Below, one piece after another: positions 49,771 to 54,485 of a DNA stretch of 64,000 bases. Positions within the stretch are counted from its first letter, which is position 1. Each line of letters starts with the position of its first letter. The notes below the pieces were generated by a model. It was not told the origin of the DNA and made no database searches. It worked only from the letters and a program-made list of their open reading frames with translations. Both the position numbers and the translations under genes were made by a program. Origin of the DNA: Flavisolibacter tropicus (GTDB taxonomy: Bacteria; Bacteroidota; Bacteroidia; Chitinophagales; Chitinophagaceae). The stretch lies in assembly GCF_001644645.1 (NCBI RefSeq), contig NZ_CP011390.1, forward strand, positions 1,922,001-1,986,000, written 5' to 3'.

Positions 49771-50139
49771 CTAATAATTACCAATACTTAGCATCACTAA
49801 CGTACAGCCTATAACCGGTTCTATACCGTTCTCTTTAGCCTTTGTAATCAGTTGTTCATTTTCCGTACCGGGATTAAAAATGATCCGTTTGGGCTTTAAG
49901 TCCAATATATAATCAATATACTCTCGCTGATTCATTGGGTTCAAATACAGCGTTACAGTATCTACACCGGTAACCGGCAAATGGTCTTTTTCAATTTGAA
50001 CATCCCCTACCTTACCAAGTTTCTTTCCAATAGCCACAACGGGGTGACCATGGGAGGCCAGCTTATTAATAGCCAAATAGCTATAGCGGGCAGGATTATC
50101 AGACGCACCTAATACCAATGTTTTCTTTGCCTGTGCCAT
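49771..50139 (-). CDS. CoA-binding domain protein
   Basis: 122 residues, one Rossmann CoA-binding domain: 'TLVLGASDNPARYSYLAINK', 'HPVVAIGKKLGKVGDVQIEK', and 'IFNPGTENEQLITKAKENG'. The family binds CoA; single-domain forms have no assigned reaction. It follows the phenolic-lipid-type operon by 42 bases in the same direction and may be cotranscribed. Confidence 0.88.
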   Translation of the reverse strand: MAQAKKTLVLGASDNPARYSYLAINKLASHGHPVVAIGKKLGKVGDVQIEKDHLPVTGVDTVTLYLNPMNQREYIDYILDLKPKRIIFNPGTENEQLITKAKENGIEPVIGCTLVMLSIGNY

Positions 50140-50181: not shown

Positions 50182-51339
50182 TTAAAACGGCTGACCATGC
50201 GTTTTTCGAATGACAGGGCGGGCTAGCAAAGGGAACAAGCGGAAGAGTCCAACAAAAAAATTGCTGAGTATGGGTTTGCCAAAAAAGCGCTGCAATCCTC
50301 TTCCCATTTGCATACGGCCACCAAATGCTTTTAGCCACTGTTCCTTATACAACGAAACCAACTGATCAAAGCCTATCACCCCCTTTAAATACTGCTCTAC
50401 AAATAGAGCAAGCATTTTGCTACTGTGCAGTGCCATACTCATCCCATTGCCGCAAAGTGGTGTTATCATCCCTGCCGCATCGCCAAGCATCAGCACCCCA
50501 TTTTCCACCCAAGTTTTTCGGCTAAAGCTGATCTGCGCAATGGTTACTGGAAAATCATTCTCATGGGTACTCTGCTTTAATACAGACGCCAAAACGGGGT
50601 TTTTGCTCAATACGTTTTGTTCCAACTCGCGGATCTGACCGCCAGCCTTTTTCAACATAGCTGCAGTGGTTAAATAACACAGGCAATATTTTCCGTTTTC
50701 AATCTCAGACACGCCGCAATACCCATTTTCAAAATTATGCAAGCCTATTATTGAAGGCTGCTTGATACCTGCTACATGATATTTCACGGCAATGTAGTTA
50801 TTCAACCTTCGTTCCTTACTATTGATAAAGGATCGCTTCCACTTCACATCCAGGTTGCTTCGCTTGCCATATGCTCCTAAACAAAGGCGCGCTTCTATTT
50901 CACTACGAGTTGAAGAGCCATCTGAATAATGAACGTGATATTGGTTGTTATCCAATACCACATCTTCTACTTTTGAACCTTCCTTTATAACAACCCCTTC
51001 CCTTTTGGCAATCTTATATAATTCATAATCCAGAGTATAGCGACTAATACCAAAACCACCCAATAGCAGTTTTGTTTTAAAGGCCGTGCCGTTAGGAGCT
51101 GTTAATAAAAGACTGTCAATGATAGGCAACCGCATTTCTGACAAAGGCACCCCTAATGCTTCTAAGAAAGGCCAGGCTTCTTTACTAACATACTCACCAC
51201 ACACCTTATGAAAGGGATAAACTTCTTTTTCAAACAATATGACCCGAAAGCCTTTTCGTACTAACTGAATTGCTAGCGAAAGCCCAGCCAGCCCGCCTCC
51301 AATAATTACTACATCATATTGTTGTACTTGCTTTTGCAT
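50182..51339 (-). CDS. FAD-dependent oxidoreductase (SrsC-like or geranylgeranyl-reductase-like)
   Basis: 385 residues. FAD motif 'YDVVIIGGGLAGLSLAIQLV', then 'FEKEVYPFHKVCGEYVSKEA' (the Cys-Gly-Glu of geranylgeranyl-reductase/hydroxylase families) and 'VLMLGDAAGMITPLCGNGMS'. Its ATG shares one base with the stop of the methyltransferase gene (TAATG). In an srsABC-like pathway it would hydroxylate the phenol ring towards a quinone. Reduction of a prenyl chain is the alternative. Confidence 0.88.
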   Translation of the reverse strand: MQKQVQQYDVVIIGGGLAGLSLAIQLVRKGFRVILFEKEVYPFHKVCGEYVSKEAWPFLEALGVPLSEMRLPIIDSLLLTAPNGTAFKTKLLLGGFGISRYTLDYELYKIAKREGVVIKEGSKVEDVVLDNNQYHVHYSDGSSTRSEIEARLCLGAYGKRSNLDVKWKRSFINSKERRLNNYIAVKYHVAGIKQPSIIGLHNFENGYCGVSEIENGKYCLCYLTTAAMLKKAGGQIRELEQNVLSKNPVLASVLKQSTHENDFPVTIAQISFSRKTWVENGVLMLGDAAGMITPLCGNGMSMALHSSKMLALFVEQYLKGVIGFDQLVSLYKEQWLKAFGGRMQMGRGLQRFFGKPILSNFFVGLFRLFPLLARPVIRKTHGQPF

Positions 51340-52037
51340 TAAATGCTACAAATTATTAACCACCGGAATGCCCACTCCCATCGACATAAAACATTATGCA
51401 GCCCTGCTTTCTTCAAAAGCCGTCTCCACTCCTCTTTATGAAAACCGCGCATTACAGAAATGGGCGCATCATTTTTAACAAGGTAACTTTTTGAAAAGAG
51501 CTGTGTTAATAGTTTAATGGAATAGTAAGCTACCGGGTGGCGCTGCAGATCATTTATAAAAAATCCTTTTTGACTATTCGCATTCATCCACTTTAATTGA
51601 TCTACCAACTCATCATCTTTAAAATGGTGTGAAAACAAAGAAGAGAAAATAATGTCAGGTTTCTGATCAAACTGCACATCTCTGTAATCCGACACTAAGA
51701 ATTGAATGCCTTGATTAGCTACATTTTGCTTTGCATATTCAACACACTCCTTATTAATATCTATACCGGCAAGAGTTACGTCAATATGATTTTTGGCTGC
51801 CCACTTTTTAATTACACGCAAATTATCACCACCTCCACAACCAATTTCCACGATATTCCAGTTTTGCTTTGTATGATTTGCAACTAGTAGTTGCACCCCC
51901 TTAAGCGTAATGCGATGCCCTCCCAACAAATGATTAATGGTATCCAGCTCAGCCATATTCTGCCGGATAGCTTCAAATGGAATAGCATTGCCATCCAATA
52001 ATTCTTGTTGGTATGATCGGTATTTAAATGAAGGCAT
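51339..52037 (-). CDS. SAM-dependent methyltransferase of the T3PKS operon
   Basis: 232 residues. Motif I 'WNIVEIGCGGGDNLRVIKKW', acidic residue in 'LAGIDINKECVEYAKQNV', and 'KPDIIFSSLFSHHFKDDEL'. Start and stop each overlap neighbours by one base (TAATG junctions), so it is cotranslated with the polyketide synthase and the flavoprotein. It probably methylates the product of the synthase. Confidence 0.88.
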   Translation of the reverse strand: MPSFKYRSYQQELLDGNAIPFEAIRQNMAELDTINHLLGGHRITLKGVQLLVANHTKQNWNIVEIGCGGGDNLRVIKKWAAKNHIDVTLAGIDINKECVEYAKQNVANQGIQFLVSDYRDVQFDQKPDIIFSSLFSHHFKDDELVDQLKWMNANSQKGFFINDLQRHPVAYYSIKLLTQLFSKSYLVKNDAPISVMRGFHKEEWRRLLKKAGLHNVLCRWEWAFRWLIICSI

Positions 52038-53113
52038 TAATAATGGGCCGTAAAAGTTTCTACTGTTAAGCCAGGACCAAGAGCCACACCTACCATTTTC
52101 CGTATTGCATTTTTATCAGCCAGCATTCTCTTTAACACAAACAAGATAGTGGCAGAAGATAAATTGCCGTGCTGTTTCAAAACATCATATGAGTGTAGCA
52201 GTGCTGGTGGATTAATTCCAGTGCTTTTTTGCATGGCTTCTAAAATTCGTTTTCCGCCAGGATGCAGGCACCAATGGGAAACATCGTTTCGTGAAGCCCC
52301 ATCTAATACTTTATCCATCACCTCAGAAAAATCTTCTTCAATCAGATCAGGCACATAACTGGTTAAGGTCATCAGGAATCCAGTAGAAGATATCTCCCAG
52401 GCCATGTCCCGCTTGCCTTTCACTATCACCTCACTATGAAAAGAATCAATTGTTAAGCCTTCTAATGGCACGTCATCGCTTACCACAAGAGCAGCAGCAC
52501 TGCCATCGCCAAAAAGCATGGAGGAAATAATATTATCGAGTGTAGCCTCCCGTTGAAAATGTAGTGTACATAGCTCAGTGCAAACAATTAGCACTTTAGC
52601 ATTACGCTCCGCTTTACATAAGGCATCTGCCAACCGCAAAGCATGAATAGCCGCATAGCATCCCATAAAGTTGACGGATGTACGGAAGATGCTTTTACCC
52701 AAATCCATCATATCCATCACTTGCAGATCCAGCCCGGGTGCACTCATGCCCGTACAGCTTACTGTTATAAAATGAGTAACCTCATGGTCATGTAGCACAT
52801 TGTGCAGGCAATCGCGTATGGCATCTACAGAAAGCAATGGTGCTTGTTTATGATAAATAGCCATCCGCTGTTCCAAAGTAGGGAACGGCTCCAGTCCCTC
52901 GCTTTGCGGATAAAACTTCCATTCAGACAAAGGACGCCCGTAATCTGATACTACGGAAAAACGCTTCTCTATCCCACTTTGATTATACAGGTACCGCATC
53001 TTACGACGATCAGCTTCAGTAGGTGCATAAACCATTTGCATAAACTGTAAAATATCTGCTTGTTTGTGGCAAAAAGCTGGCACCGCCGTTCCTATAGAAA
53101 CTATCTTACTCAA
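52037..53113 (-). CDS. Type III polyketide synthase
   Basis: 358 residues. Thiolase fold with catalytic Cys152 in 'TSVNFMGCYAAIHALRLAD', His in 'VSHWCLHPGGKRILEAMQ' and Asn in 'DVLKQHGNLSSATILFVL'. 'FITVSCTGMSAPGLDLQVM' is the N-terminal family signature. It builds an alkylpyrone, alkylresorcinol or similar from fatty-acyl and malonyl-CoA. The start is TTG inside the last codons of the UbiA gene (8-base overlap); no ATG fits. Confidence 0.93.
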   Translation of the reverse strand: MSKIVSIGTAVPAFCHKQADILQFMQMVYAPTEADRRKMRYLYNQSGIEKRFSVVSDYGRPLSEWKFYPQSEGLEPFPTLEQRMAIYHKQAPLLSVDAIRDCLHNVLHDHEVTHFITVSCTGMSAPGLDLQVMDMMDLGKSIFRTSVNFMGCYAAIHALRLADALCKAERNAKVLIVCTELCTLHFQREATLDNIISSMLFGDGSAAALVVSDDVPLEGLTIDSFHSEVIVKGKRDMAWEISSTGFLMTLTSYVPDLIEEDFSEVMDKVLDGASRNDVSHWCLHPGGKRILEAMQKSTGINPPALLHSYDVLKQHGNLSSATILFVLKRMLADKNAIRKMVGVALGPGLTVETFTAHY

Positions 53114-53969
53114 AATGGTTCAGTATTATAAGGGTTAAGAAATAGCCGGTGGTTCCTAAAGTAGAAATGACATTCATCCGCAGGCTGTTCTTAAAATTAG
53201 CCTCTTTTTCATCTTTCCAGACCTTCCTAAACCAATGTAGAAAAAATCCGACCACAGGCATCGTAAATAACAGGAACAAGTAAAAAAGCTTCAACTTATT
53301 TTGCTCTTTAAAAAATACGAATAGAGCAAAAGCGGCGCCCCCAAACAAAAGGGCACTGAACAGAAATGTACCGCGTTTACCTAGCAAATAACTGATAGTG
53401 ATAACCCCATCCTTCTTATCATCTTCATGTTGATAAATCTGCGTTAGTGGATATAAAGCCCCAATTAGCAAACTGGCAATCAAACACGGAAGCAAAAGAT
53501 GAAAAGTGGCTGTATTCGAATCAATTGATTTATAGGTACTATAAAAAATAACGGCCCCCTGAAATATAAAAACGGTAAGGAAGCCAATAAAAGGATATTG
53601 TTTCAATCGAATGCCCCGATAGCTATAGGCGCGTGATGCCAGTATATAAAGCACTACCCCTACCCCCAAAACCGAGCTCACATAAAAGGAAAGCATCAAC
53701 GCCACTAAATCCATGACAATACTAACCAGGAAGAGCTCCTTTGTTGGTTGCAGAGGTTTAGATAAACCACCTATTGGCGACTCATCCCTATCCATATAAG
53801 AATTATAGCCATTACTGGATGGATAAACCAGGAAGTGGAGAATAATGAAAATAACCAGAGCTTTACCCCATGACACATCAGGTACCTGGCTTATAGCAAA
53901 AAGATAAACCGGCAACAGGAACAGTGAGAAATGGAACCGCAATAGTTGAAGGGTGGAGCGTTGAAACAT
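53106..53969 (-). CDS. UbiA family prenyltransferase
   Basis: 287 residues from ATG 'MFQRSTLQLLRFHFSLFLLP', about eight membrane helices. Asp-rich motif 1 'NSYMDRDESPIGGLSKPLQ' and motif 2 'QIYQHEDDKKDGVITISYLL' bind the prenyl diphosphate through magnesium. It joins a prenyl chain to an aromatic acceptor. It is first in the operon and overlaps the polyketide synthase gene, so its acceptor may be the synthase product. Confidence 0.88.
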   Translation of the reverse strand: MFQRSTLQLLRFHFSLFLLPVYLFAISQVPDVSWGKALVIFIILHFLVYPSSNGYNSYMDRDESPIGGLSKPLQPTKELFLVSIVMDLVALMLSFYVSSVLGVGVVLYILASRAYSYRGIRLKQYPFIGFLTVFIFQGAVIFYSTYKSIDSNTATFHLLLPCLIASLLIGALYPLTQIYQHEDDKKDGVITISYLLGKRGTFLFSALLFGGAAFALFVFFKEQNKLKLFYLFLLFTMPVVGFFLHWFRKVWKDEKEANFKNSLRMNVISTLGTTGYFLTLIILNHFE

Positions 53970-54485
53970 AATTGCCAACGATGATCTTCTATAAATATAG
54001 GTGGAATTATAGGTAATTAGTAAGTAAAGACGGGAACTGATAATTCATTTACACTCCCTGCCTGTTCAATGCTCTTCAAGAACCTTTGATGCCTCTCACT
54101 CTCCGCAGCCTGGAAGGGTATTTAATAACCCTAAATTTTACACTATATCTTTATATATACAATGGATGGCACAAAATAAGGGTGTGCGCCAGCAGCTAAC
54201 CACTTGTACTCTTTTATGTTGCTGAAAGCAGACGTTAGAGGCTGCTCTATCTCTCCCTTACCTTTTGCTGCACCTATCGTCGTGACCGCTTCGGGACTTC
54301 TTCGAAGCGTCCCGAAGAAGTCTAGAAGAAGCCTCGAAGAAAGTACGAAGGTGGGCGCAACAAATCCCCCACAAAACGTAAAAAAGAGTGAAGAAAGGAG
54401 AAAGAAACCAGAAGCGGCTAATCTTTAATACAGAACTAATGGCTGCTTGCACTTCCTTTAATATGAGAATCAGTAATTTAGGACC
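53970..54485. other. Intergenic region with CGAAG-rich repeat
   Basis: About 516 bases between the leftward UbiA operon and the rightward phosphoesterase gene. No gene recognised; frames crossing 54204-54452 are repeat-derived. It contains the patch at 54283-54350 and presumably the promoters of both flanking units. Confidence 0.5.
54283..54350. repeat. CGAAG-rich intergenic repeat patch (second copy)
   Basis: Inverted repeat CTTCGGGAC (54289-54297) / GTCCCGAAG (54309-54317), then further TCGAAG and CGAAG words. It shares 'agcctcgaag' and style with 1857-1913. Confidence 0.5.

Follow-up and report, generated by a model that had tools for sequence, protein, structure and literature searches.

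A conserved Bacteroidota operon pairing a variant UbiA-superfamily enzyme with a type III polyketide synthase, and its probable role in prenylated phenolic-lipid synthesis

Background

The srsABC operon of Streptomyces griseus encodes a type III polyketide synthase (PKS), a methyltransferase (MT) and a flavin hydroxylase, in that order, and to our knowledge contains no gene for a UbiA-type prenyltransferase. The agqABCD operon of Actinoplanes missouriensis, said on the strength of work by Awakawa et al. in 2011 to produce alkyl-O-dihydrogeranyl-methoxyhydroquinones, does not begin with its prenyltransferase gene. Here we describe a related set of genes from a member of the Bacteroidota, Flavisolibacter tropicus, whose 5.94 Mb genome is a single contig; the 64,000 nucleotides that were analysed (contig NZ_CP011390.1, positions 1,922,001 to 1,986,000) are referred to below as the window. 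Its minus strand carries four open reading frames (ORFs) with no gaps between them, which encode, in order, a UbiA-superfamily protein (UbiA), a type III PKS, a class I MT and a flavin adenine dinucleotide-dependent oxidoreductase (FAD), the last three in the srsABC order.

SrsA alkylresorcinols are reported to be oxidised to alkylquinones (PMC10896814), and in the agq system the products of an alkylresorcinol synthase are said to be both prenylated and hydroxylated (PMC10896814; PMC7692728; PMC4044012; PMC3569393), agqA being accompanied by agqB to agqD (PMC7692728) and a membrane-bound prenyltransferase O-prenylating a small polyketide (PMC4044012). In planctomycetes, the operon PKSs of Gimesia maris and Rhodopirellula baltica, when placed in Corynebacterium glutamicum, give 5-pentadecyl- and/or 5-heptadecylresorcinol, and addition of the G. 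maris MT and FAD yields methylresorcinols (PMC10896814). Also reported are agq-like clusters in Micromonospora (PMC9967187), a UbiA gene in the vicinity of the PKS for loseolamycin (PMC7587189), and one hierridin-like cyanobacterial cluster carrying a prenyltransferase, described as unique there (PMC8086630). Type III PKS clusters have been counted in Flavobacteriaceae (PMC7440613), and among the matches listed from open-licence titles and abstract openings none describes a Bacteroidota type III PKS-UbiA pathway; the main text of PMC9248904 makes no mention of T3PKS, type III, resorcinol, prenyl or UbiA, nor does PMC6274091 mention Agq, UbiA or prenyl.

The window operon resembles agqABCD by function, in that a type III PKS, an MT, a flavoenzyme and a UbiA-type protein are encoded together, but it differs in belonging to a member of the Bacteroidota rather than an actinomycete and in having UbiA as its first gene. 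With the hidABC (hierridin) and planctomycete operons it has three functions in common (PKS, MT and FAD), whereas their usual order is MT-FAD-PKS, as in the planctomycete locus that we inspected, which has no UbiA. PKS, MT and flavoenzyme genes also lie head to tail in Deinococcus, Roseomonas, Methylobacterium and Sphingobium, although in Sphingobium the annotation of the third gene says no more than NAD(P)-binding. In Psychrobacter they are neighbours on opposite strands. The PKS of one locus compared (L086) is 36.1% identical to that of the window. A preliminary description of this DNA had likened the locus to PKS-methyltransferase-flavoenzyme phenolic-lipid operons, which these comparisons support, and had implied that the addition of UbiA was new, a point overtaken by the prenylation in agqABCD and by the prenyltransferase of the cyanobacterial cluster. 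Because a quartet with prenylation is thus already known, what we report is a widely conserved Bacteroidota variant of it with a distinctive UbiA subfamily.

Results and discussion

Identity and conservation of the four genes

Pfam models back all four identities proposed in the preliminary description: UbiA matches PF01040 at 71.7 bits (cut-off 34.2), the PKS PF00195 and PF02797 at 100.1 and 69.7 bits (cut-off 27 each), the MT PF13649 at 46 bits (cut-off 27), and FAD PF01494 at 53.4 bits (cut-off 22). No NCBIfam match shown for the operon proteins attains its curated cut-off, the MT for instance reaching 134.2 bits against NF004851 (cut-off 243). The ORF coordinates likewise bear out the compact leftward layout described earlier, with overlaps of 8, 1 and 1 bases between consecutive genes. 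At E <= 0.001 the N-terminal family of type III PKSs is matched once in the genome, and there are seven UbiA matches including the operon copy, six of which exceed the Pfam cut-off. Together with its chalcone/stilbene synthase domains, the PKS possesses the catalytic triad that had been read from the window alone, and this extends to its relatives, with Cys152 and His284 in 81/81 aligned rows and Asn317 in 80/81, the remaining row having a gap. Among MT relatives (79 rows), the motif E.GCG.G is present in 77 of the 78 longer than 200 amino acids (aa).

The quartet is retained as a unit. A scan of named genomes with the PKS gave at least 576 confirmed relatives, of which the best 80 were analysed for synteny; by their titles these come from Chitinophagaceae genera or from metagenome-assembled genomes labelled Chitinophagaceae, Chitinophagales, Sphingobacteriales, Bacteroidetes and similar. 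In tblastn comparisons with the window proteins, 75 of these 80 loci show UbiA-PKS-MT-FAD with order and strand kept, and on account of this shared order and orientation the arrangement is far beyond chance. Conservation of the four genes together in relatives had been named beforehand as a point on which the interpretation could fail, and it held. In three of the exceptions (L066, L052 and L081) the locus is truncated where its contig ends, and in a fourth (L045) the contig begins inside the PKS.

Beyond these close relatives, the PKS and UbiA co-occur across the class. In a sample of 295 genomes across Bacteroidia, with UbiA called at E <= 1e-30, a strong PKS (>= 260 bits) is found in 54 genomes, all 54 of which encode UbiA, whereas a weaker PKS is found in 21, with UbiA in only one (G635). 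The 61 UbiA-bearing genomes of this sample represent 27 families. In the 54 paired genomes the starts of the two genes are at most 1.4 kb apart in 46 and at most 3 kb apart in three; in the other five they are separated, by 336 and 720 kb in two and on separate contigs in three, so that linked, divergent and unlinked arrangements all occur. That both genes are kept even when unlinked makes one shared pathway likelier than chance neighbourhood, although shared ancestry contributes. In a sample of 395 genomes across the Bacteroidota, which overlaps the class sample, UbiA above 200 bits is present in 26 genomes, all 26 with a PKS of at least 378 bits, and of the 109 genomes with a PKS of at least 260 bits, the 23 inside the class all have a strong UbiA. 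The preliminary description was sound as to identities, operon structure, conservation and analogy, and, apart from the novelty it implied for UbiA, it overlooked both this spread beyond Chitinophagaceae and the altered UbiA metal motif described next.

A UbiA subfamily whose second metal motif is altered

By its PF01040 match and intramembrane helical fold the first protein is a member of the UbiA prenyltransferase superfamily, but it lacks the intact pair of motifs, NDxxDxxxD and DxxxD, of a canonical UbiA. In an alignment of 221 rows, the first Asp of motif 2 is replaced by Gln in all 219 rows with a residue there, and where motif 1 should have its +8 Asp the rows vary, with Ser, Thr, Gly, Glu, Lys, Gln and other residues. 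Mapped on AfUbiA, with residue roles taken from PMC4106721, the counterparts of N68, D72 and D202 are retained, as are, by our own mapping, those of R22, Y139, S140 and the basic K146 region. Compared with AfUbiA, ApUbiA and MenA the subfamily thus stands apart at the D198 counterpart, which is Gln, and at the unconserved +8 position, and its Gln-type second motif contrasts with the Asp-rich motifs (for example NxxxDxxxD) typical of known bacterial membrane prenyltransferases (PMC4044012). Searched as a single sequence, UbiA matches no PDB entry at E <= 1, whereas a profile gave a match at E 0.00098. Outside the Bacteroidota, tblastn of two UbiAs against a plasmid collection found nothing, the chromosomes of other phyla lying outside that search, and a scan of viral contigs found no UbiA relative.

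The state of the motifs appears to follow the presence of the PKS. In four genomes with no PKS (G427, G404, G490 and G517) the UbiA homologue no longer has several of the ten residues examined, or is without the segment that bears motif 1, though that of G517 still carries the Gln; the alignment of such distant rows is less certain. Conversely, in G590, where the adjacent PKS is cut by the contig end, all ten residues are intact, and a 136-aa UbiA fragment in G449 has intact motif-1 residues; the residue check did not include the UbiA of G635, a 61% complete genome. A link between motif integrity and PKS presence is therefore suggested by the alignment, in a small sample; the rows with decayed motifs are only distantly related and may represent old paralogues. 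Three of the degraded homologues, at L198, L200 and L203 (G427, G490 and G517), have no PKS match and each lie beside an ORF of about 955 aa, and it is possible that they are repurposed, non-catalytic UbiA proteins. Another UbiA, at L195 (2483961-2484581), is found beside ORFs that look TatD-like and dehydroquinate-synthase-like, a neighbourhood that we take to resemble the ebo cluster.

Placement of the type III PKS

The best PDB relatives of the PKS are Steely1, 4b0n (polyketide synthase III), 7cb3 and pks18. Its Cys182, in a column that we presume to be an acyl-tunnel position, is present in 81/81 rows, and the same column has Cys in the pks18 chain 1ted and Phe in 1tee. A tree of 48 rows, built without a characterised alkylresorcinol synthase and with an outgroup that does not fall on one side of a branch, was used only for a 26-row set. 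Rows L089, L188, L090 and L088 have long branches of uncertain position, and the tree was built without the PKSs of L154 (G166) and L187 (G030), which the ORF filter missed. The 26-row set (support 100/97) comprises the PKSs of UbiA genomes, namely 12 from Chitinophagaceae and 13 from other UbiA-bearing genomes, plus one from a Psychrobacter plasmid with no UbiA annotated nearby. Outside it fall the Deinococcus, alphaproteobacterial and planctomycete PKSs of PKS-MT-FAD trios and those of family f24, whose label of "no strong UbiA" includes genomes with a distant Gln-type UbiA. Grouping with an unrelated type III clade had also been named beforehand as a possible point of failure; the window PKS groups among the PKSs of most PKS-MT-FAD loci and far from DpgA, the exception being the long-branched L188. 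Identity with DpgA was separately rejected, as the window PKS scores 155.8 bits against NF042429, which requires 425, while the Nonomuraea PKS (L089) scores 636.6. In a protein search with a planctomycete PKS, no characterised alkylresorcinol synthase is named among the best 120 matches.

Locus L188 (4579-10042) contains FAD, MT and PKS genes together with short-chain dehydrogenase/reductase, FabA-like and ketosynthase genes; its FAD is near that of the window (410 bits), its PKS is of a different lineage, and its genome has no UbiA match.

The flavoenzyme

A predicted model of FAD (predicted local distance difference test score, pLDDT, 88) finds, by Foldseek, flavin halogenases, a Cytophaga flavoprotein and 3-hydroxybenzoate 6-hydroxylase. 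Motifs were counted in the 72 of 77 aligned rows longer than 350 aa, in 71 of which the residues GYCG occupy an aligned stretch. A halogenase role, raised by the best sequence and fold matches, was dropped since WxWx[IL]P, covering the WxWxIP motif of flavin-dependent phenolic halogenases, is present in 0/72. Of the 21 class genomes with a weaker PKS, 14 encode this type of FAD no more than 2 kb from the PKS, and none of these has UbiA at 1e-30; L188, with the order FAD-MT-PKS, is an example. In the one f24 locus scanned (L183), the FAD of the trio is closest to PRK08244/UbiH-kind monooxygenases, from which we take it that flavoenzymes of more than one lineage occupy this place in the trio. 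On a Hymenobacter swuensis plasmid (L209, 3887-5071), a 39% identical homologue is encoded two genes from an isonitrile synthase and beside a TauD-family dioxygenase, a context hinting that this type of flavoenzyme may act on other aromatic substrates too.

A proposed pathway and its alternatives

Drawing on the protein families, operon structure, conservation, co-occurrence, predicted folds and conserved residues, we consider it fairly probable that the four enzymes of the operon together make a prenylated phenolic lipid, working like agqABCD. The order of reactions, the starter, the donor, the position of each group, and the final structure and function of the product are inferred. The type III PKS would take a fatty acyl starter, extend it with malonyl-CoA and close a resorcinol-type ring; the MT would methylate the product; FAD would act as a monooxygenase adding a ring hydroxyl to give a hydroquinone or quinone; and the UbiA-fold enzyme, working in the inner membrane, would use a prenyl diphosphate to attach an isoprenyl group either to the ring itself or to one of its hydroxyls.

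Several observations weigh against this proposal. Of the four acidic residues with which AfUbiA binds Mg2+, one is missing from UbiA, as is the +8 Asp; the best PDB matches of FAD are halogenases, and the planctomycete study leaves the role of its FAD oxidoreductase open (PMC10896814). The pairing is also imperfect: 7/61 UbiA genomes of the class sample have no strong PKS, L010 (one of the best 80 loci) has UbiA-PKS with no detectable MT or FAD, MT or FAD is likewise absent near the PKS in L162 and L168, and 5/54 paired genomes give no FAD match at 1e-60. It breaks down outside the class, where among 86 genomes with a PKS of at least 260 bits only three have a strong UbiA, 34 have a distant UbiA (all of family f24, and unlinked in the seven loci inspected), and 49, including 11 from f24, show no UbiA match at 1e-8 with up to six candidates per genome scored. 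Set beside the class counts, these numbers tie the pairing to family f13 and to this PKS clade within the class; it does not extend to the PKS family as a whole.

As an alternative, the phenolic lipid might be unprenylated, with the Gln-type UbiA repurposed so as to move another group, such as phosphoribosyl, or to cyclise a prenyl donor via its altered second metal site; the invariant Gln would fit such a change, the retained AfUbiA counterparts fit ordinary prenyl transfer, and we regard this alternative as unlikely. The PKS could equally yield an alkylpyrone, since the way in which a type III PKS cyclises its product cannot be read from its sequence alone and pks18, an alkylpyrone enzyme, is among its best PDB relatives; the resorcinol class is assigned by analogy with the operon type. 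Nevertheless, a phenol acceptor would suit both flavin hydroxylation and UbiA prenylation, and PKS-MT-FAD operons have been linked to alkylresorcinols and hierridins (PMC10896814; PMC8086630), so that a pathway in which the tailoring enzymes decorate alkylpyrones or another polyketide seems rather unlikely to us. A further reading concerns FAD, which might saturate the transferred isoprenoid as a prenyl reductase of the geranylgeranyl reductase type, as the agq "dihydrogeranyl" would need, with no ring hydroxylation. Its best NCBIfam match is indeed the geranylgeranyl reductase subfamily TIGR02032, a further point against our proposal, and the pairing with UbiA suggests isoprenoid work, but at 108.6 bits it falls under the cut-off of 158.8 and YxWxFP, the substrate motif of geranylgeranyl reductases, is present in 0/72 rows. 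These motif absences, the occurrence of this FAD type near PKSs without UbiA and the Hymenobacter isonitrile-synthase context favour a ring monooxygenase, and leave an isoprenoid reductase improbable.

Within the proposed prenylated phenolic-lipid pathway, we advance more tentatively, and with appreciably less confidence than the pathway itself, the idea that the Gln-type UbiA subfamily has a rebuilt site for the second metal and is a dedicated partner of the Bacteroidia PKS clade. The two would jointly make undescribed prenylated or otherwise UbiA-modified alkyl-phenol or quinone membrane lipids across many families of the class, UbiA would decay upon loss of the PKS, and the Gln would be the sign of a different donor or of catalysis with a single metal. 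If true, many Bacteroidota families encode an uncharacterised prenylated phenolic lipid, possibly redox-active or envelope-modifying, and this hidden lipid class is testable in named culturable strains, for example of Cnuella, Niastella and Flavihumibacter. The constant Asp to Gln change would be a natural experiment on how intramembrane prenyltransferases employ their two metal sites, given that the other Mg2+-binding residues stay and that the motif has decayed in four PKS-less genomes readable in full or part. Of these features, the Gln-type UbiA, so strictly paired with the PKS within the class, most merits experimental work.

Gene calls and neighbouring genes

Table 1. Features of the operon and the adjoining gene (window coordinates)
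Feature	Coordinates	Strand	Length	Remarks
UbiA-superfamily intramembrane prenyltransferase	53106..53969	-	287 aa	ATG start; motif 1 NSYMDRD, motif 2 QHEDD
Type III polyketide synthase	52037..53113	-	358 aa	TTG start; Cys152/His284/Asn317, Cys182; PF00195/PF02797
Class I S-adenosylmethionine (SAM) methyltransferase	51339..52037	-	232 aa	motif EIGCGGG; PF13649
FAD-dependent oxidoreductase, group-A monooxygenase / geranylgeranyl-reductase superfamily	50182..51339	-	385 aa	probable ring hydroxylase; PF01494
CoA_binding_2 protein	49771..50139	-	122 aa	follows FAD after 42 bases; PF13380, 84.1 bits

An in-frame TTG upstream, at 53978, is a possible alternative start for UbiA; the ATG was adopted because it matches the consensus start of the family. 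The Gln of motif 2 is residue 180 when counted from the ATG and 183 when counted from the TTG. A CoA_binding_2 gene is found downstream in 44 of the best 80 loci, often several kb off, and in 43 of the 75 complete four-gene loci; its role in the pathway is doubtful. A MATE-like gene adjoins the PKS in nine loci within L171-L186, of which eight belong to family f24 and one to f22, and beyond this gene lies a gene for a sensor-kinase-like protein of about 1280 aa (Pfam run on L183 only). The distant Gln-type UbiA of f24 is encoded away from the PKS, beside a gene for an unknown protein of about 299 aa, and Thioredoxin_9 and class III aminotransferase genes are also near in most of the seven loci.

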